Assembly: GCA_024639325.1 (NCBI GenBank)
Contig: JAHEIO010000034.1
Coordinates: 1 to 37,450 of the forward strand
From: Gammaproteobacteria bacterium
GTDB lineage: Bacteria; Pseudomonadota; Gammaproteobacteria; Arenicellales; JAANXG01
DNA length: 37,450 bases
Direction of reading: 5' to 3'
A program made the translations under genes and the position numbers. The notes under the pieces were generated by a model. The model was given only the letters and a program-made list of their open reading frames with translations. It ran no database searches and was not told where the DNA came from. Shown here piece by piece: positions 11,458-20,370 of the stretch. Positions within the stretch are counted from its first letter, which is position 1, and each line of letters begins with the position of its first letter.

Positions 11458-12762
11458 TCATTGGGTCATTTTTGCAGGGAGCCAGGTGGCCAGCTCTGGG
11501 AATGCGGTAAGCAGGACGATTGCGATCATCAGTAGCAAGAAGAAAGGCATCGCATACAGCGAGATGCTCAGTATGTTGATTTTCGTAAGTCCCTGGATTA
11601 CGAATAGATTAAAACCTACGGGTGGCGTAATTTGAGACATCTCCACAACCAGTACGACGTAGATTCCGAACCACAACAAATCGATGTTGCTGCGTTCAAT
11701 CATCGGCAACACGATGGACGTCGTTAATACGACAATTGAGATGCCATCGAGAAAACAACCAAGCACCATGAAGAACAGGGTCAGCGCTATGATCAGCATA
11801 GCGGGTGTAAGACCCAATTCAGAGATTTGTTCAGCCAGCAATCGGGGAATGCCTGTGAAACCCATTGCCAGACTCAGAAACGCGGCGCCCGCGATAATGA
11901 AGGTAATCATGCATGAGGTGCGGGTCGCACCCAGAAGACTGGATTTAAAATTCTCGACGTTCAGATTACCGGTAACCAGCGATAGGAACAGCGCGCCGAA
12001 TACGCCGAGAGCCGCGGCCTCTGTGGCTGTCGCCCAGCCGGCATAAATCGAACCCAATACGAAGAAAACAAGCCCCAAAACCGGAAACAGGCGGCGGGTC
12101 TGATAAAGTTTCTGCAAGAAAGATAAGTCCGGGGTGTCGTCTTTGGGTAGTTTTTCAGCATTGAAGATCGCCCAGATCGCGGTGTAACCCATGAACAGCA
12201 CCACCAGCATCGCGCCCGGAACCACCCCTGCGATAAACAGCCGGGAGATAGAAACCTCCGCGGATACCCCGTATACAATGAGAATGATCGACGGCGGTAT
12301 CAAAAATCCCAATGTTCCCGAGCCAGCCAGTGTGCCTATCATCATCTGGAGCGGATAATGCCGTTTATTCAATTCCGGAAAAGTCATTCGGCCGATGGTG
12401 GCGGCGGTGGCGGCAGAGGAACCCGAAACTGCGGCGAAAACGGAGCAACCCAGGATGTTTACATGGAGTAAACGGCCGGGAATTTTCCGCAGCCACGGCG
12501 CCAAACCGTAAAACAAGTCTTCCGACAGCCTGGTACGAAATAATATCTCACCCATCCATATGAACAACGGCAATGCCGCGAGCGTCCACGTTGCGGATGC
12601 GCCCCAGGTACTCGTTGCAAAAAGCAGGCCGATGTTGCTGTTGCCGTTCAACGTCAGGGCAATGAAGGCGACGAGAAACAAAGTGCCGGCAACCCAGATC
12701 CCGCTCAACAATGCGCCAAATAGCACAGCGCACAAGATTATCACCAGATTTGCAATCTCCAC
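11458..12762 (-). CDS. dctM: TRAP transporter large permease, DctM
   Basis: 434 residues, about twelve membrane helices. Family landmarks include FVAFIALTLNG-like helix packing, LFIWMGEILFRTRLSEDLFYG, SGSSAATAATIGRMTFPELN, GSGTLGFLIPPSIILIVYG and VVEMSQITPPVGFNLFVIQG. It forms the substrate-translocating part of a Na+-driven TRAP system with DctQ. The start is the GTG at 12762, eight bases after the DctQ stop and preceded by GAGGA inside the DctQ end; an upstream extension of the frame only overlaps DctQ out of phase. Last gene of the dctP-dctQ-dctM transcript. TRAP systems import organic acids, sialic acid, ectoine and similar compounds; the substrate here is unknown. Confidence 0.93.
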   Translation of the reverse strand: MEIANLVIILCAVLFGALLSGIWVAGTLFLVAFIALTLNGNSNIGLLFATSTWGASATWTLAALPLFIWMGEILFRTRLSEDLFYGLAPWLRKIPGRLLHVNILGCSVFAAVSGSSAATAATIGRMTFPELNKRHYPLQMMIGTLAGSGTLGFLIPPSIILIVYGVSAEVSISRLFIAGVVPGAMLVVLFMGYTAIWAIFNAEKLPKDDTPDLSFLQKLYQTRRLFPVLGLVFFVLGSIYAGWATATEAAALGVFGALFLSLVTGNLNVENFKSSLLGATRTSCMITFIIAGAAFLSLAMGFTGIPRLLAEQISELGLTPAMLIIALTLFFMVLGCFLDGISIVVLTTSIVLPMIERSNIDLLWFGIYVVLVVEMSQITPPVGFNLFVIQGLTKINILSISLYAMPFFLLLMIAIVLLTAFPELATWLPAKMTQ

Positions 12763-12770
12763 GGGGCGGG

Positions 12771-13268
12771 CTAGTCCTCGAGCTCGACAAAGGAGGGGGT
12801 ATGTCCTTGCAGAGAACTGATGATGTCGTCCATCAGTGCAATGAAAAACAGCACCGCACCAAACGCCATTGGCAGCTGGGGGATCCACAGTGGAATTGCA
12901 ATGTAGCCCTGGGACAACTCAGCAAATTGCCAGGACTCGTAGACGAGGTAGCAAAGATGGTACGCGCCGTATCCCGTAATCAGTGTGAAAACAAACAGCG
13001 CCGCATAGGTCAGCTTTCTCTGAAATGATGAGGACAGCCGGTGAACGAGCAAGGTCACCCGGATGTGACCGCCATGCCGGAAAGTGTAAGCAAGCGCGAG
13101 AAATGACGCCGCAGCCAGCAAATAACCCGAAAAATCTTCCGTGGATGGGATGATGATCCCAATCCACCGACCGGCTATCTGGGCCAGGACCATCAAGGTT
13201 ATGAATACGATACAGGCACCGGCAACGATGCCGGCGCCGTTATAGACCTTATCAAGCTTGGATCGCAC
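12771..13268 (-). CDS. dctQ: TRAP transporter small permease, DctQ
   Basis: 165 residues with four membrane helices: IVAGACIVFITLMVLAQIAG, FSGYLLAAASFLALAYTF, LTYAALFVFTLITGYGAYHL and LPMAFGAVLFFIALMDDIIS. The family landmark FRHGGHIRVTLLVHRLS follows the second helix, and LWIPQLPMAFG lies before the last. It partners DctM in the membrane complex. The start is a GTG at 13268 with a poor ribosome-binding site, 25 bases after the DctP stop, so it may depend on read-through from dctP. Confidence 0.92.
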   Translation of the reverse strand: MRSKLDKVYNGAGIVAGACIVFITLMVLAQIAGRWIGIIIPSTEDFSGYLLAAASFLALAYTFRHGGHIRVTLLVHRLSSSFQRKLTYAALFVFTLITGYGAYHLCYLVYESWQFAELSQGYIAIPLWIPQLPMAFGAVLFFIALMDDIISSLQGHTPSFVELED

Positions 13269-13293
13269 TGATAAAGATCTTGTCTACGATCGT

Positions 13294-14265
13294 CTATCGA
13301 TAAGCGGAGAGAATTTCCTTGCCCGCTTCACCGGCTTCCGCAGCCCATTCCTCACCCATGATCTCACCAATGGCTTTCAAGTCAGCCTTGAGCTGCTCAC
13401 TGGGTTGTGCAACCGCGATACCGTTTTCCGCCAGCGTAGCGGTTTTAGCGGCAGTTTCAGCCCGCGCCATTTCCCATCCCCGGTTTTCTGCTGCGGCTGC
13501 GGCCTCCATCACGGCTTTTTGCTGATCATCATCCAGACGCTTGAACGCGCGTGCGTTGACAATCACCATGTTCTTGGGAATCCAGGCCTGGGTATCCGTG
13601 TAATTCGTAACGTAGTCCCACGACTGGCTGCTTACGCCGGTGCTTGGGGAGGTAACCATCGCATTGATGATGCCGGTCGAGAATGCTTGCGGAATTTCCG
13701 GGGTCTGCACCGTTGTCGGGGTCGCTTTGAGCAGCACTGCCAGCCGGGAGGTCGTTGGACTGTAGGCGCGCATCTTCAGTCCCTCGAGATCCGCGGCTGA
13801 GGATATTGGTTTTTTCGTGTAAAAACCCTGCGGCGGCCAGGGCACGGCATACAAGAGTTTCAGTCCATCTTTTTCCAGCGCTTGATCGACGCTTGGGCGG
13901 GTCGCAGCCCACAGTTTGCCGGCGCTTTCGAAATCAGAGGCGAGAAAAGGAATATTGTCCGCCTTGAAAACCGGGTTGTCGTTACCCAGCAAACCCATGA
14001 ACATCTCACCAATGGGCACCTGCCCGGTTCGTACTGCTCGATGAATCTCGGGGTGCTTGATCAACGAAGCCCCGGAATGAACGACGATATTCAATTCTCC
14101 GTTGGTCGCCTTGCTGACGTCTTCGGCAAACTGCCGAACATTTTTCGTGTGATGGACCCCATCACTGTAGGGCGTTGGCATATCCCATTTGGTTTCGGCA
14201 TGGCTGGCGCCAACCAGCAGTCCGAAACCCGCCAGCACGGCCGTAAAAGACTTGAGTATGAACAT
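13294..14265 (-). CDS. dctP: TRAP transporter periplasmic substrate-binding protein, DctP family
   Basis: 323 residues. The signal peptide is about residues 1-23 (FTAVLAGFGLLVGASHA, then ET). The mature protein has the DctP pattern: VRQFAEDVSKATNGELNIVV, HSGASLIKHPEIHRAVRTGQ, PPQGFYTKKPISSAADLEGLK, MRAYSPTTSRLAVLLKATP and the NMVIVNARAFKRLDDDQQKA segment. The arginine of LKMRAY is the position that normally pairs with a substrate carboxylate, so an organic acid is likely. The ATG at 14265 has GGAGG eight bases upstream; codons further out are not signal-peptide-like. First gene of the operon, with a palindrome 47-60 bases before the start. Confidence 0.94.
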   Translation of the reverse strand: MFILKSFTAVLAGFGLLVGASHAETKWDMPTPYSDGVHHTKNVRQFAEDVSKATNGELNIVVHSGASLIKHPEIHRAVRTGQVPIGEMFMGLLGNDNPVFKADNIPFLASDFESAGKLWAATRPSVDQALEKDGLKLLYAVPWPPQGFYTKKPISSAADLEGLKMRAYSPTTSRLAVLLKATPTTVQTPEIPQAFSTGIINAMVTSPSTGVSSQSWDYVTNYTDTQAWIPKNMVIVNARAFKRLDDDQQKAVMEAAAAAENRGWEMARAETAAKTATLAENGIAVAQPSEQLKADLKAIGEIMGEEWAAEAGEAGKEILSAYR

Positions 14266-14311
14266 TGCGGAACCTCCGGTGAGTTGATCGGTAACGGGGC
14301 ATGCAGGTACG

Positions 14312-14325
14312 TAAAACATGTTTTA
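14312..14325 (-). promoter_or_regulatory. Perfect 14-bp palindrome, possible operator of the TRAP operon
   Basis: TAAAACATGTTTTA is fully self-complementary and lies 47-60 bases upstream of the dctP start codon, overlapping a TATAAA on the minus strand that could serve as a -10 element. Its size and position suit a dimeric repressor, but no regulator gene is adjacent. Confidence 0.4.
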
Positions 14326-14696: not shown

Positions 14697-15419
14697 TCAG
14701 TCAGTCCGGGTTATCACGACTTTAGCGACCGAATCGGTCCAGCCGTGTACCGCCGGAACCAGATCAACACCGCCCAAGATACCCAGGTGACTGTTGATGA
14801 CCCCGCCTTCGGCCAGTGTCGGATCGCTGGTACCGGTTCCGAGATCGTCTGACATCTCCCCGACCAAGGCCTGACAGGGGGGGACGATGTCTGCAAAGTC
14901 TTCGGTGTTCATCTCGGTCCCGGCGTCATAGGCGCCGATGGAAACCGTCACGCTGTCACCGACTTTTTTTGGCAGGCGCTGAGCATCGAGCCCGGTGAAA
15001 CCGTCGTTGGTGCAGATCAACATCGATACGAAGGACAGGTACTTGGCGGGTGGCGAGGCATGAATCTCGAATTCGAGTGTCGCGCCTGACCCGCCGCCGT
15101 GGAAGATCGGTCTCTCGCCAACCATGGATTCGAACACATGCTTGTCGGCGGCCAATGCCTCGGCGAGGGGCGTCACGTTGCCGTTTTCCGCGATCTCTTG
15201 CACTTCGACGCTCGCGGGTTCGCCGACCTCGAAGACGTCCAGCGGCCTTCTGTGCGTTGCCACCACGGGCGGCGTGAAAGGCTGGCCACTTGTCAAATTG
15301 TTTATGGTGACATTGTAAGTCTTGATCGCTGGTGCGGCATGGCTGTTCATAACCCCGAACGAAGACATCAAAGCGACGGCGGCGGTAATCGTGTTCAATT
15401 TGCGTATTTTCCCAATCAT
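14697..15419 (-). CDS. Secreted spondin-domain protein
   Basis: 240 residues with a signal peptide (about 1-28, ITAAVALMSSFGVMNSHA then AP). The mature protein resembles bacterial spondin_N domains: YNVTINNLTSGQPFTPPVVA, HRRPLDVFEVGEPAS, ENGNVTPLAEAL, KYLSFVSMLICTNDGFTGLD, the VGDSVTVSIGAYDAGTEMNT segment and a C-terminal strand VAKVVITRTD. These single-domain proteins are secreted or periplasmic and poorly characterised; in animals the fold occurs in matrix-adhesion proteins. The ATG has AGGAGA upstream. It is transcribed divergently from the response regulator at 15729, with paired regulator-like direct repeats between them, so it is a plausible target of that system. Confidence 0.85.
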   Translation of the reverse strand: MIGKIRKLNTITAAVALMSSFGVMNSHAAPAIKTYNVTINNLTSGQPFTPPVVATHRRPLDVFEVGEPASVEVQEIAENGNVTPLAEALAADKHVFESMVGERPIFHGGGSGATLEFEIHASPPAKYLSFVSMLICTNDGFTGLDAQRLPKKVGDSVTVSIGAYDAGTEMNTEDFADIVPPCQALVGEMSDDLGTGTSDPTLAEGGVINSHLGILGGVDLVPAVHGWTDSVAKVVITRTD

Positions 15420-15536
15420 ATCTATCTGTCTCCTAAACGCAGTGCATTAATTTCAAGTACCGGACACAACAGGACACGGTACCTTCGGAGGACTCGATAC
15501 CAGAGTCCGCGTGCGTGCCACTTTAGGAAAGAGATG

Positions 15537-15553
15537 TCACGAATCGGTCACGA
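15537..15553 (-). promoter_or_regulatory. Direct-repeat operator A (TCACGA-N5-TCACGA)
   Basis: Two exact TCACGA hexamers start at 15537 and 15548, 11 bases apart, with a weaker third (TCAAGT) at 15559 in the same phase. The 11-bp period is typical of OmpR/PhoB-family binding. The site lies 118 bases upstream of the spondin start and is the inverted match of operator B. Confidence 0.55.
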
Positions 15554-15630
15554 AAGTTTCAAGTTTTCGTCTCATGAACACTGGGCCGTATCGCAGCTTG
15601 GTCCGCGGGATTCGGATGGTGTGCGGCGAA

Positions 15631-15647
15631 TCGTGACGCTTTCGTGA
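15631..15647 (+). promoter_or_regulatory. Direct-repeat operator B (TCGTGA-N5-TCGTGA)
   Basis: Two exact TCGTGA hexamers start at 15631 and 15642, again 11 bases apart. TCGTGA is the reverse complement of TCACGA, so operators A and B carry the same motif facing opposite ways. The site ends 82 bases before the response-regulator start codon, suiting autoregulation. Confidence 0.55.
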
Positions 15648-15728
15648 TATCTGGTTGCTACGCTCCCACCATGAAACGATGGGGGTCCATAGCCGCGGCG
15701 TATAGAACGGGGTAAGCTAATCACCGTC

Positions 15729-16451
15729 ATGCCCAAAAGTATCCTTGTTATCGAAGACAACAACGACATCGCGAACCTCGTGATGATCAACCTGCGAGGC
15801 AAGCATATGCGCGTCGACCACGCTGCGAACGGCGAGGCTGGCCTCGAAATGGCGCTGACCGGGAACTACGACCTGGTGATACTCGATCTGATGCTGCCCG
15901 GTGTGGACGGCATGGACATTTGCCGGACGATGCGGCGCAAAGAGCTCTACACGCCGGTATTGATGCTGACGGCGAAGACCTCTGAGCTGGACCGGGTTCT
16001 GGGGCTGGAGGTTGGCGCCGACGATTATTTGACGAAACCGTTTGGGGTACCCGAACTGGTGGCCCGGGTAACCGCGATCCTGCGCAGGGCGTGCGAATAT
16101 CAGTCGCAGCCGGCGGCGGACAACCCTGCTTCGTTGGAGTTCGATGGCCTGTCTGTAGATCCCGGCAAGCGGCAGGTGCTGGTTGGTGACAGCAATACTG
16201 AACTGACCGCCAGGGAGTTCGATCTGTTGTGGCATTTTGCACTCAATCCGGGCCGGGTGTTTACCCGGGCGCAGCTGCTGGACAGCGTTTGGGGTTATGG
16301 CCACGACGGATACGAGCACACCGTGAATTCGCACATCAATCGCCTGCGCGCAAAAATCGAGACCGATCCGGCTAACCCCCGTTACGTTATTACCGTCTGG
16401 GGTGTCGGTTACAAATTCTCCGGCGACGATTCCAGGAGGGAGGTAAAATAA
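15729..16451 (+). CDS. OmpR/PhoB-family response regulator
   Basis: 240 residues. The receiver domain (about 4-118) has the acidic pocket ED (9-10), the phospho-acceptor D53 in VILDLMLPG, the conserved T of MLTAKT and the KPF lysine in DDYLTKPFG. The C-terminal winged helix (about 140-232) has LTAREFDLLWHFALNPGRVF, the recognition-helix region SVWGYGHDGYEHTVNSHI and INRLRAKIE, ending in VWGVGYKF. It should be phosphorylated by the kinase whose ATG overlaps its stop codon by one base (TAATG). The direct repeats at 15537-15553 and 15631-15647 are its likely binding sites. The signal is unknown. Confidence 0.96.
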   Translation: MPKSILVIEDNNDIANLVMINLRGKHMRVDHAANGEAGLEMALTGNYDLVILDLMLPGVDGMDICRTMRRKELYTPVLMLTAKTSELDRVLGLEVGADDYLTKPFGVPELVARVTAILRRACEYQSQPAADNPASLEFDGLSVDPGKRQVLVGDSNTELTAREFDLLWHFALNPGRVFTRAQLLDSVWGYGHDGYEHTVNSHINRLRAKIETDPANPRYVITVWGVGYKFSGDDSRREVK

Positions 16452-17929
16452 TGTTCCGGACACTTTACAGCCGGCTGGCCCTCACCCTGTTCGTCCTGCT
16501 GTGCATTGTCGGGGTGATCCTGATTCAACTGATTGGTCATTCCAGCGCCCTCTATCAGCAGGAAGTCGCGCAAAAGTTGAACCGCGAATTGGCGGAGCAC
16601 ATCGTCGCCGAGCAGCCGCTGATCCAGAACCAGCGGGTCAACGACCAGGCGCTGGATCGCCTGCTGCACCAGCTGATGGTGATCAATCCCAGTATCGAGT
16701 TATACCTTCTCGACCAACAGGGACTGCTGCTCGGTTATTTGGCGCCGGAAGGCAAGGTCAAGAGGGCCCGGGTCGCGCTGGAACCGGTCAGGCAGTATTT
16801 GGATCAAAACGCCCGGTTTCCAATCGAGGGTGACGATCCGCGCAATCCCGATGGCCGCAAGGTGTTTTCAGCAGCTGAGATCGTCAATGAAGACGGCCTG
16901 CAGGGCTACCTGTATATCGTCCTTGGCGGCGAGCAGTACGACAACGTCGTGCAGATGTTGAAAAACAGTTACATTCTGGAGTCCTCACTGGTTGTATTAC
17001 TCGCCGCGTTGGCAGCGGCGCTGATTTGCGGATTGATCGTATTTGCATTGCTGACCCGCAGATTGCGAGTGCTGGGCAGCGTGATGCGCAGTTATGCCCG
17101 ACAAGATCACGATGGAGATGCGGCGATAACTTTCCCGGACACGGAAAAAGTCAACGATGAGATCGACGAGTTGGGCGCACACTTCAAAGTCATGGCGGAG
17201 AAGATCAATGCGCAGATCCGCGAGCTGCAGAAAATGGACAACCTGCGGCGTGAAATGGTCGCCAATGTCTCGCACGATCTACGCACTCCCTTGACCACAA
17301 TGCGCGGCTATCTGGAGACGCTGCTGCTGAAACGTGGAACGTTGACCCAACAGGAACAGGAACAGTACCTTAAAACCGCCTTGCGCCACAGTCAGCGTCT
17401 CGGCCAACTGGTGGAAGAGCTGTTCGAACTGGCCCGGCTGGACTCTTGCCAATCGGTCCTTTACTCGGAACCGTTTTCAATGGGCGAGCTGGTGCAGGAC
17501 GTTAGCCAGGCATTTCGGCTGCGCGCGCAGGAAAAATCGATTGAGCTGGAGGTCAGGCTGAATCCGAGTGTGCCGTTGATTTACGGCGACATCGCGATGA
17601 TGCAGCGCGTGCTGGAGAATCTGCTGGAAAACGGGCTGCGCCATACACCGCCGGGTGGCCGCATCACTATCGGTGTTGACGTCGACTCCACCAACGTCGT
17701 GGTTAGGGTTAGCGATAGCGGCAGCGGCATCCCGGCTGCGGACGTACCGCGGATTTTCGAGCGTTTCTATCAGCAGGACGTCAACCGCTCGGGCAACAAC
17801 GGTGCCGGCCTCGGTCTGGCCATCGCACAACGGATAATCGACCTGCACGGCAGCGCCATCGTGGTTAACAGTGAGCTCAATCGGGGCACTACGTTTTCTT
17901 TTCAACTGCCGGCGACGCCCGCCGGCTAG
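16451..17929 (+). CDS. Sensor histidine kinase (HAMP, HisKA, HATPase)
   Basis: 492 residues. TM1 (about 8-28), a periplasmic sensor of about 145 residues (helical N-terminal part, then LEPVRQYLDQNARFPIEGDD) and TM2 (about 178-200) are followed by a HAMP linker (RRLRVLGSVMRSY, then DELGAHFKVMAEKINAQI). The HisKA motif NVSHDLRTPLTTMRGYLETL contains the phospho-acceptor H275. The ATPase domain has NLLENGLRHTPPGG (N box), VSDSGSGIP (G1), IFERFYQ (F box) and GAGLGLAIAQRII (G2). All catalytic motifs are intact. Translation is probably coupled to the regulator through the one-base overlap. Its TAG stop lies inside the CTAGCCCGCATT repeat motif at 17926. Confidence 0.96.
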   Translation: MFRTLYSRLALTLFVLLCIVGVILIQLIGHSSALYQQEVAQKLNRELAEHIVAEQPLIQNQRVNDQALDRLLHQLMVINPSIELYLLDQQGLLLGYLAPEGKVKRARVALEPVRQYLDQNARFPIEGDDPRNPDGRKVFSAAEIVNEDGLQGYLYIVLGGEQYDNVVQMLKNSYILESSLVVLLAALAAALICGLIVFALLTRRLRVLGSVMRSYARQDHDGDAAITFPDTEKVNDEIDELGAHFKVMAEKINAQIRELQKMDNLRREMVANVSHDLRTPLTTMRGYLETLLLKRGTLTQQEQEQYLKTALRHSQRLGQLVEELFELARLDSCQSVLYSEPFSMGELVQDVSQAFRLRAQEKSIELEVRLNPSVPLIYGDIAMMQRVLENLLENGLRHTPPGGRITIGVDVDSTNVVVRVSDSGSGIPAADVPRIFERFYQQDVNRSGNNGAGLGLAIAQRIIDLHGSAIVVNSELNRGTTFSFQLPATPAG

Positions 17930-17954: not shown

Positions 17955-18995
17955 TCAGACAATTCCGGGGGCGTCGTCTTTGTCAATAGCCTGTTGTTCG
18001 CTGTCTTTGAAGGCGCTGACCTGATCCGCCACTGCCGACACGTCCTCGAACTGGGCTATGTGTACCACGGCATCGCCCTCGTTGACCAGAGGCAAATGAG
18101 TGCGGCCTATGACGACACCGGATGTGGTTGCCTTGATGTCGGTTTGCGTTTGCCCAAACGGATCCGCAACCGCACCAAGAATATCCCCCTTACTGACGTT
18201 GGTGCCGAGTTTCGTATTGTTCAACAACACACCGCTAATGGGTGCCCGCACCCAGGCACTGGACTGGGCCGCGAAAAATTTTTTCGGTGTTTTACGACGC
18301 CGCTTCGTTGTCAGCATGCCGAGTGCATACATAACGTTGTTGATACCGCGAAGCCCTGCCCGGATACAGACTTCATCGAAGCGCAGGGCTTCGCCCGCCT
18401 CGTAGATCATGATCGGAATACCGAGGTCGCAGGCAGCCTGGCGTAACGAACCGTCTCGCAGTTTCGAATTGATGATGATGGGGACGCCAAACGCATGGGC
18501 CAGTTCCCTGGTGTTCTTATCGTCGAGATCCGCACGAATTTGAGGCACATTGTCACGATGCAAGGCGCCGGTGTGCAGGTCGATGGCGTGGGTCGCGTGT
18601 GCGACCACTTCGGTCATCAATAATTTCGCAAGGCGGCTTGCCAGGGATCCTTTTTCGGAGCCTGGGAACGAGCGGTTCAGATCGCGCCGGTCGGGGAGAT
18701 AGCGGGAATGGTGAATCACCCCATAAACATTTACGATTGGGATGGCGATCAGGGTTCCGCGAATACGGCTCAAATTGGGCTGAATCATCAAGCGGCGGAT
18801 GATTTCCACGCCGTTCAACTCGTCACCGTGAATCGCCGCACAGACAAACAGGCAGGGTCCATCGCGCCTGCCGCGCAACACATACACCGGCATTTCCATC
18901 GGCGTATGGGTGTAGAGTTGCGGAATCGGGAGATCGAGCATGACCCGCGTGCCCGGCTCGATTATTTCGCCGGCAATCTCGACTGTTGCGGTCAT
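17955..18995 (-). CDS. AstE/aspartoacylase-family zinc hydrolase
   Basis: 346 residues of the M14-type succinylglutamate desuccinylase/aspartoacylase superfamily. The zinc ligands are visible: H56 and E59 in HGDELNG, and H141 in DLHTG. The substrate-binding DLNRSFPG (105-112) is present, and IMIYEAGEALRF carries the likely catalytic glutamate. The C-terminal part (about 250-325: WVRAPISGVLLNNTKLG, KGDILGAVADPFG, IGRTHLPLVNEGDAVVHI) is a biotinyl-like beta fold found in many members. It should hydrolyse an N-acyl amino acid or amide, perhaps a glutamate conjugate, given that rimK lies only three bases upstream. The true substrate is unknown. Last gene of the seven-gene run. Confidence 0.88.
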   Translation of the reverse strand: MTATVEIAGEIIEPGTRVMLDLPIPQLYTHTPMEMPVYVLRGRRDGPCLFVCAAIHGDELNGVEIIRRLMIQPNLSRIRGTLIAIPIVNVYGVIHHSRYLPDRRDLNRSFPGSEKGSLASRLAKLLMTEVVAHATHAIDLHTGALHRDNVPQIRADLDDKNTRELAHAFGVPIIINSKLRDGSLRQAACDLGIPIMIYEAGEALRFDEVCIRAGLRGINNVMYALGMLTTKRRRKTPKKFFAAQSSAWVRAPISGVLLNNTKLGTNVSKGDILGAVADPFGQTQTDIKATTSGVVIGRTHLPLVNEGDAVVHIAQFEDVSAVADQVSAFKDSEQQAIDKDDAPGIV

Positions 18996-18998
18996 CGG

Positions 18999-19907
18999 TT
19001 AACCTTGGCCACGGGTGCGCGTTCTTTTGGGTTTCGCGTTTGTTTCCAAAAACTGGATGATCATGTCGGCAACGTCCTTTCCCGTGGCCTTTTCGATGCC
19101 TTCCAGACCCGGTGATGAGTTCACCTCCATGACCACCGGTCCGTGGCTGGATCGAAGAATGTCGACTCCGGCGACGTTTAATCCCATTCTCTTGGCGGAA
19201 CGCACGGCGGTGGAGCGCTCTTCGGGCGTCAGTTTTATCAACGACGCGGTGCCGCCACGATGCAGGTTGGATCGAAATTCACCCTCTGCGGCTTTGCGCA
19301 TCATGGCGGCAACAATCTTGCCGCCGATGACGAAGGCTCGAATATCGGCGCCGCCGGCCTCCTTGATGAACTCCTGCACCAGAAAATTCGCTTTGAGCTG
19401 GCGAAAGGCATCGATGATGGTCTCCGCGGCTTTTTGCGTCTCTGCAAGCACGATGCCTTTTCCCTGCGTGCCCTCGAGTACCTTGACCACCAGCGGGGCG
19501 CCATTGACCAGCTGGATCAAATCATTGGTGTTCTTGGTGGAGTGGGCGAAGCCGGTTAACGGCAGACCAACGCCGGCACGCGCCAGGATTTGCAGTGAGC
19601 GCAGCTTGTCCCGAGAACGGGTGATGGCTACCGACTCATTCAACGGATAGCTGCCCATCATTTCGAATTGACGAAGGACGGCACAGCCGTAAAACGTCAC
19701 CGAGGCGCCGATGCGGGGTATGACGGCATCGAAGAATGGCAGCTCCTGCCCGCCGAGATGCACGCTGGGGCTATGAGACGCGATATCCATATAGCAATTC
19801 AGCGTGTGTACGTACTCGATCTCATGGCCCCTTGCCCGGGCCGCCTCGACCAGGCGTCGGTTCGAGTACAGTCGATCTTTGGCTCGTGTAAGTAGCGCAA
19901 TTCGCAT
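18999..19907 (-). CDS. rimK: RimK, ATP-grasp ligase adding glutamate to ribosomal protein S6
   Basis: 302 residues from the ATG at 19907 ([19 protein letters not shown]), which has AGGAGC eight bases upstream; the longer frame would overlap the preceding gene. N-terminal family motifs are [35 protein letters not shown] and [20 protein letters not shown]. The ATP-grasp core has [51 protein letters not shown] and the metal-binding [14 protein letters not shown]. RimK adds glutamates to the C-terminus of S6 and can make poly-glutamate. The retropepsin-like gene ends five bases before its start, and the hydrolase follows after three bases, so the three are surely co-translated. Confidence 0.96.
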
Positions 19908-19911
19908 GATT

Positions 19912-20370
19912 TTAGCTCCTGTCTTTCCTAAGGTTTGATTTGAAACTGCGTTTGCCGACGAGATACGAAGCGCCGGCATTGACAACGAATCGTTTCCGCA
20001 GCGCGGTGCGTCCGAGGAGCATGCGAAATCGCATGGTGTCCCGATCGGTCAGCGTCGCCTCGATGCGCCATTTCGTATCACCGACGACCACCGTTGTTTC
20101 GATCACGTACCGCATCTCACGATGGCCGCCGGAGTCGGTAACGATGCGTTGATCGAGTACCGGGGCGACGCAGACTAGTTCGATGTCGGTTCGTTTCTGC
20201 AATGGGTGAATGCCAAAACGCACCAGGCTTTGATTCTGGTCCGGTTCGATAAAAAACGCGTGGAGGGCCGACGTTCGCGCACCGGTGTCGACTTTGCACT
20301 TGATACGTTTGATGCCGAGGTCGGGCAGCGACACCCACTCACGCCATCCCAGCGCCGGCAGGGATGTCAT
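19912..20370 (-). CDS. rimB: RimB-type retropepsin-like ('ATP-dependent zinc protease') protein
   Basis: 152 residues of the Zn_protease family (PF05618), which has a pepsin/retropepsin-like fold despite its name. The active-site-like motif is [12 protein letters not shown] with D28; the second hallmark, [11 protein letters not shown], follows near residue 119, matching the ILG motif of retropepsins. The start ATG overlaps the stop of the upstream channel gene (ATGA), so translation is coupled. In Pseudomonas the related RimB modulates RimK activity. Whether this protein cleaves anything is not shown by the sequence. Confidence 0.88.

Follow-up and report, generated by a model that had tools for sequence, protein, structure and literature searches.

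We propose that two mirror-image DNA boxes between a spondin-domain gene and a two-component system are operators of the adjacent response regulator, which would use them to activate both its own operon and the spondin gene in a response to methionine oxidation at the cell envelope. From the comparative evidence below, we consider this reading very probable. By "the window" we mean the whole stretch of DNA that was analysed (37,450 nucleotides).

The locus and its two boxes

The spondin gene (14697-15419, minus strand) encodes an exported protein whose start resembles a signal peptide. Its membership in Spondin_N is seen both with domain models (Pfam Spond_N, E = 1.1e-9; NCBIfam NF038123, 156 bits with a cut-off of 40) and in the predicted fold (mean pLDDT 80), which matches the F-spondin domains of mindin and F-spondin (3d34/3q13) with E about 1e-10. 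Calcium binding has been reported for F-spondin. Downstream of the spondin gene is a TRAP-type transporter operon (11458-14319, minus strand), in which Pfam identifies the solute-binding protein (DctP) and two membrane subunits were recognized by eye.

The divergent gene (15729-16451, plus strand) encodes a response regulator of the OmpR/PhoB family, with Pfam Response_reg and Trans_reg_C domains (E about 1e-27 and 1e-28) and with D53 and K103 invariant among 11 orthologs. It scored below the NCBIfam cut-off for every one of the 25 families listed, including PhoB (204.4 bits, cut-off 296.2), CreB, HprR (170.4, cut-off 353), CusR, and BaeR; for the copper/silver regulator model, the score was 152.4 and the cut-off is 420. 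The end of this gene is overlapped by the gene for the cognate histidine kinase (16451-17929, plus strand; HisKA and HATPase_c), whose structure model includes a periplasmic PAS/Cache-like sensor domain. The first-pass annotation had described the sensor as an orphan, but its kinase gene directly follows the regulator gene, so at the level of genes the sensor has a partner. The sensor domain had no sequence match in PDB. Its structure model (mean pLDDT 74) aligns with domains of CitA, DctB, and LuxQ at Z about 9, and as these fold matches are only of middling strength, we do not claim a ligand. Convergent genes after the kinase (17955-20370, minus strand) appear by eye to encode an AstE/aspartoacylase-like protein, a RimK-like ligase, and a small aspartic-protease-like protein. 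Similar aspartoacylase-like and RimK-like genes adjoin each other on another contig of a related genome, G008 (L267).

The mirror-image hexamer repeats that had been described in the divergent promoter are present at exactly the positions given for them. Box 1 is TCACGA-N5-TCACGA on the plus strand (TCACGAATCGGTCACGA, 15537-15553), or TCGTGA-N5-TCGTGA on the minus strand, toward the spondin gene. Box 2 (TCGTGACGCTTTCGTGA, 15631-15647) reads TCGTGA-N5-TCGTGA on the plus strand, toward the regulator gene; on the minus strand it is TCACGAAAGCGTCACGA. Each box thus faces its own gene. The predicted -10 elements begin 11 nt past each box and are TAAAGT for the spondin promoter (15520-15525, minus strand) and TACGCT for the regulator promoter (15659-15664, plus strand). 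One 11-bp step on from box 1, on the side distal to the spondin gene, there is a degenerate third copy (15559-15564), which is TCAAGT on the plus strand and ACTTGA when read toward the spondin gene.

Searching the 4.69-Mb genome for TCACGA-N5-TCACGA, which had been suggested as a check, gave two exact matches, both in this intergenic region, and the same pattern written backwards had none. We also shuffled the 309-bp region and asked how often the same hexamer would appear in tandem twice, a criterion that was chosen post hoc: this occurred in 17 of 20,000 shuffles if all 21 spacings were considered and in 0 of 20,000 at a spacing of 5. If one mismatch was allowed, the box had 49 matches in the host genome (3 of them exact), versus 21 for the backwards control. 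The full arrangement (TYGTGA-N5-TYGTGA-N11-TAnnnT) was found exactly only at the two promoters in the window, and in the scan with this arrangement, none of the one-mismatch matches had a -10 element at +11. The sole other near match to the box in the host genome, TTGTGACAAAATTGTGACAAAA at L102:1501-1522 (G000:C235:4337-4370), is a partly palindromic repeat before a likely HigBA-type toxin-antitoxin pair. It looks unrelated and we set it aside.

Recurrence of the box in other genomes

The first-pass annotation had also named an alignment across relatives with the same gene order as a check, and the boxes came through it. In the closest relative that keeps the divergent order (G004; regulator 86% identical and spondin protein 83% identical), the intergenic region is longer and has drifted, yet both boxes are kept: TCACGAATCGGTCACGA is identical, and the other, TCACAAAAGCGTCACAA, differs by two G-to-A substitutions, which fall on the degenerate position. 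We then scanned 100 genomes of the order for TCACRA-N5-TCACRA. There were at most a handful of matches per genome, and in genomes that own the regulator-kinase system, the matches fall repeatedly at its genes. Matches lie upstream of the spondin gene in G005, G008, and G011, and G009 is one mismatch off. In these four genomes and in G004, box 1 is conserved in the spondin promoter and the third hexamer keeps its 11-bp register. More broadly, six genomes share a conserved island of about 55 bp in the spondin promoter (roughly CCACYTTAGGGAAGAGATGTCACRAATCGRTCACRAAAGTTTCAAGTTTT), although in several of them the spondin gene and the regulator stand in another arrangement. In several relatives whose regulator is about 57% identical, the stretch immediately before the regulator gene has no box.

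To test the box on loci that had not been picked for it, we fetched 80 loci with similarity to the kinase sensor domain as the only criterion. With regulator loci added, this gave 89 non-duplicate loci; most had been selected through the sensor kinase, and the motif played no part in selecting any of them. The loci are mostly from metagenome-assembled genomes. We scored TYGTGA-N(k)-TYGTGA in two 400-bp stretches per locus, one before the regulator and one after the kinase, and allowed a single mismatch at most. At k=5 there were 38 boxes upstream of the regulator and 46 downstream of the kinase. The sole other peak was at k=16 downstream of the kinase (41 boxes), which corresponds to a third 11-bp copy; all other spacings had 0-9 boxes each. 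In the opposite orientation at k=5, there were 7 boxes upstream, most of which belong to divergent target genes, and 0 downstream. When the loci were collapsed at 80% identity of the regulator, 52 remained, of which 35 had the box. The promoters of 17 paralogous regulators had none. Roughly one locus in three, among them most of those from Nitrospira, had no box within 400 bp.

The layout of box 2 recurs upstream of the regulator in many loci. When these regulator-promoter boxes are aligned, the consensus is TTGTGATnnTTTTGTGATA, and TAnnnT begins exactly 11 nt past the box in 31 of 33 promoters.

The probable binding protein and its likely effect

Of the proteins that might bind the two boxes, we consider the adjacent regulator far more likely than any other, in line with what the first-pass annotation had proposed. 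This proposal is supported by the box travelling with the regulator-kinase pair in the 89 loci, and it is further backed by the fixed spacing, the nearly fixed polarity, and the fixed distance to the -10 element. The pattern was picked after it had been seen, and when two mismatches are allowed, the window has no more matches than shuffled sequences do, which would fit with repeats that arose by chance and have no regulatory role. But the boxes recur independently at orthologous promoters with the same spacing, polarity, and -10 distance, so we give chance almost no credence.

PhoB also deserves consideration. At PhoB promoters, tandem half-sites with an 11-bp period replace the -35 element and lie close to the -10 element. 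The system in the window is similar in having an OmpR/PhoB-family regulator and tandem half-sites with an 11-bp period at the -35 position. If these were Pho boxes, then PhoB would bind them during phosphate starvation and the adjacent regulator would not. The half-sites are alike (TGTGA versus TGTCA), and on the plus strand, site 1 is near to a tandem TGTCAC (TGTCAC-N5-GGTCAC). However, the half-site here is TYGTGA while that of the Pho box is CTGTCA; across loci, the G of TGTGA is fully conserved. The regulator-promoter consensus given above lacks the TGTCA half-site, and its flank on the other strand is TATCAC instead. A Pho regulon should have many sites per genome and we see only two. The gene set differs as well, and the sites follow the regulator-kinase pair across loci. 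The adjacent regulator is not itself PhoB, as it lies below the cut-off of that model (204 bits versus 296). Overall, we view the Pho box explanation as very improbable.

If the adjacent regulator binds the boxes, it might still repress both promoters until a signal arrives, as an occupied box at -35 could keep RNA polymerase off the promoter. We think that this is unlikely: the constant distance of 11 nt, the fixed polarity, and a box that replaces any recognisable -35 element are the layout of activator-dependent promoters of the PhoB type. In PhoB-type activated promoters, the box stands in place of the -35 element, and since the boxes here are in that position, activation is the likelier effect.

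We therefore favor activation by the adjacent regulator, which would work as follows. The phosphorylated regulator would bind each tandem TYGTGA-N5-TYGTGA as a head-to-tail dimer, and the bound dimer would substitute for the -35 element, 11 nt upstream of the -10 element. Through box 2, the regulator would activate its own operon, including the kinase, and through box 1, which points the opposite way, it would activate the exported spondin-domain protein.

Probable target genes and the proposed link to methionine oxidation

Boxes that face a gene other than the regulator were found in 39 loci, and we compiled their targets by hand. These are spondin genes in 15 loci, methionine sulfoxide reductase (Msr) genes in 11 loci (counted if directly next to the box or separated from it by a single gene), and members of a small exported protein family in 8 loci, together 34 of the 39; the other 5 are unexplained. 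The commonest neighbor families overall are spondin (27 loci) and MsrA/B (19 loci), as tallied with simple ORF calling and BLAST and not from curated annotation. All of the boxed spondin genes are in genomes that have the kinase. The spondin genes had no box in 7 genomes that lack the kinase and no detectable box in 4 genomes that have it. Five further boxes that we inspected elsewhere in the relatives are mostly inside genes or point the wrong way; the exception is the hexamer array of G001 described below.

Boxes precede msr genes in G003, G008, L181, L200, L215, L221, L237, and L239. Within the order, the box separates the kinase from an MsrAB fusion in G008, from a DUF1223-MsrAB pair in G009, and from an MsrP operon in G003. 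(The MsrAB and MsrP identities were confirmed with curated models.) In G019, the box is before a methionine-rich protein of the MXKDX type, and MsrA follows the kinase. Short methionine-rich MXKDX-type proteins are also encoded near the regulator in L084, L088, L089, and L217, which are loci with Msr genes; these proteins are reminiscent of oxidant-scavenging methionine-rich peptides.

The small exported proteins are about 118 amino acids long, share the motif GRGTGPVxFVTSQGLYYDSIV, and are encoded downstream of the kinase in L163, L166, L167, L169-L172, L175, L176, and L209; the box precedes the gene in eight of these loci. The one member that we tested had no Pfam or NCBIfam match. In G001, about four hexamers in 11-bp register (L268:196-300, G001:C256) precede the gene for another small exported protein (MKSAMLFAAAL...GELYYEGGVVRTVVPP). 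This protein, a candidate target, had no relative in the 24 other genomes that we searched.

Because boxes in the relatives precede periplasmic MsrAB or MsrB, the MsrP operon, and small exported proteins, the system most likely responds to oxidative stress at the cell envelope, of a kind that oxidises methionine, and the spondin proteins likely have a role in defense against oxidants there. The link to methionine sulfoxide repair, which comes from the relatives, would extend the earlier reading, which did not include it. In the window's own genome, the box is found only at the regulator and spondin promoters, and no convincing box was seen at the Msr genes of this genome and its family outside the locus. 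As the genome has Msr genes without the box, the oxidant link is borrowed from relatives, and the local regulon may consist of only the regulator operon and the spondin gene.

Two-component systems with related roles are known from E. coli. HprRS (which responds to HOCl) and CusRS (which responds to copper) switch on hiuH-msrPQ for periplasmic methionine sulfoxide repair (PMC9302797). They resemble the system that we propose in this apparent link to periplasmic repair, but their shared box is a palindrome (CATTACAAAATTGTAATG), and the regulator here scores far below the HprR cut-off (170 versus 353). We know of no spondin gene in the HprRS/CusRS regulon. In uropathogenic E. coli, OrhK/OrhR responds to H2O2 by activating a putative methionine sulfoxide reductase operon, which is cotranscribed with hemolysin genes, and the proposed OrhR site is an inverted repeat, TCACA-N15-TGTGA (PMC8550376). 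OrhK/OrhR is also a two-component system with a link to Msr, and TGTGA is part of its proposed site, but the site here is a direct repeat.

L-amino-acid oxidases make H2O2. In Pseudoalteromonas luteoviolacea, an antimicrobial L-amino-acid oxidase is reported to have a putative operon that also contains two Spondin_N genes beside an OmpR-family regulator and a histidine kinase (PMC6316408). The arrangement is described there as gene context. It resembles the window in having spondin beside an OmpR-type regulator and a kinase, and the oxidase context would fit with oxidant defense.

We found no published description of this regulon in the literature on spondin with hypochlorite or two-component systems, and we found no assigned role for bacterial spondin-domain proteins. 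The system occurs in loci labelled Gammaproteobacteria, Desulfobacterota, Nitrospirota, and SAR324 (labels taken from record titles). A broader idea is that this two-component system, widespread and undescribed, detects periplasmic oxidant damage with its PAS/Cache-like sensor and deploys spondin proteins and Msr in response; it seems to us evenly balanced between right and wrong. If it is true, then bacterial spondin proteins would be a new class of envelope oxidant-defense effectors. A DNA box is now defined for an unnamed regulator family that is spread over several phyla. The spondin proteins gain a candidate regulator, a putative binding site for use in searches of any genome, and partner genes of known chemistry, so their function becomes directly testable.
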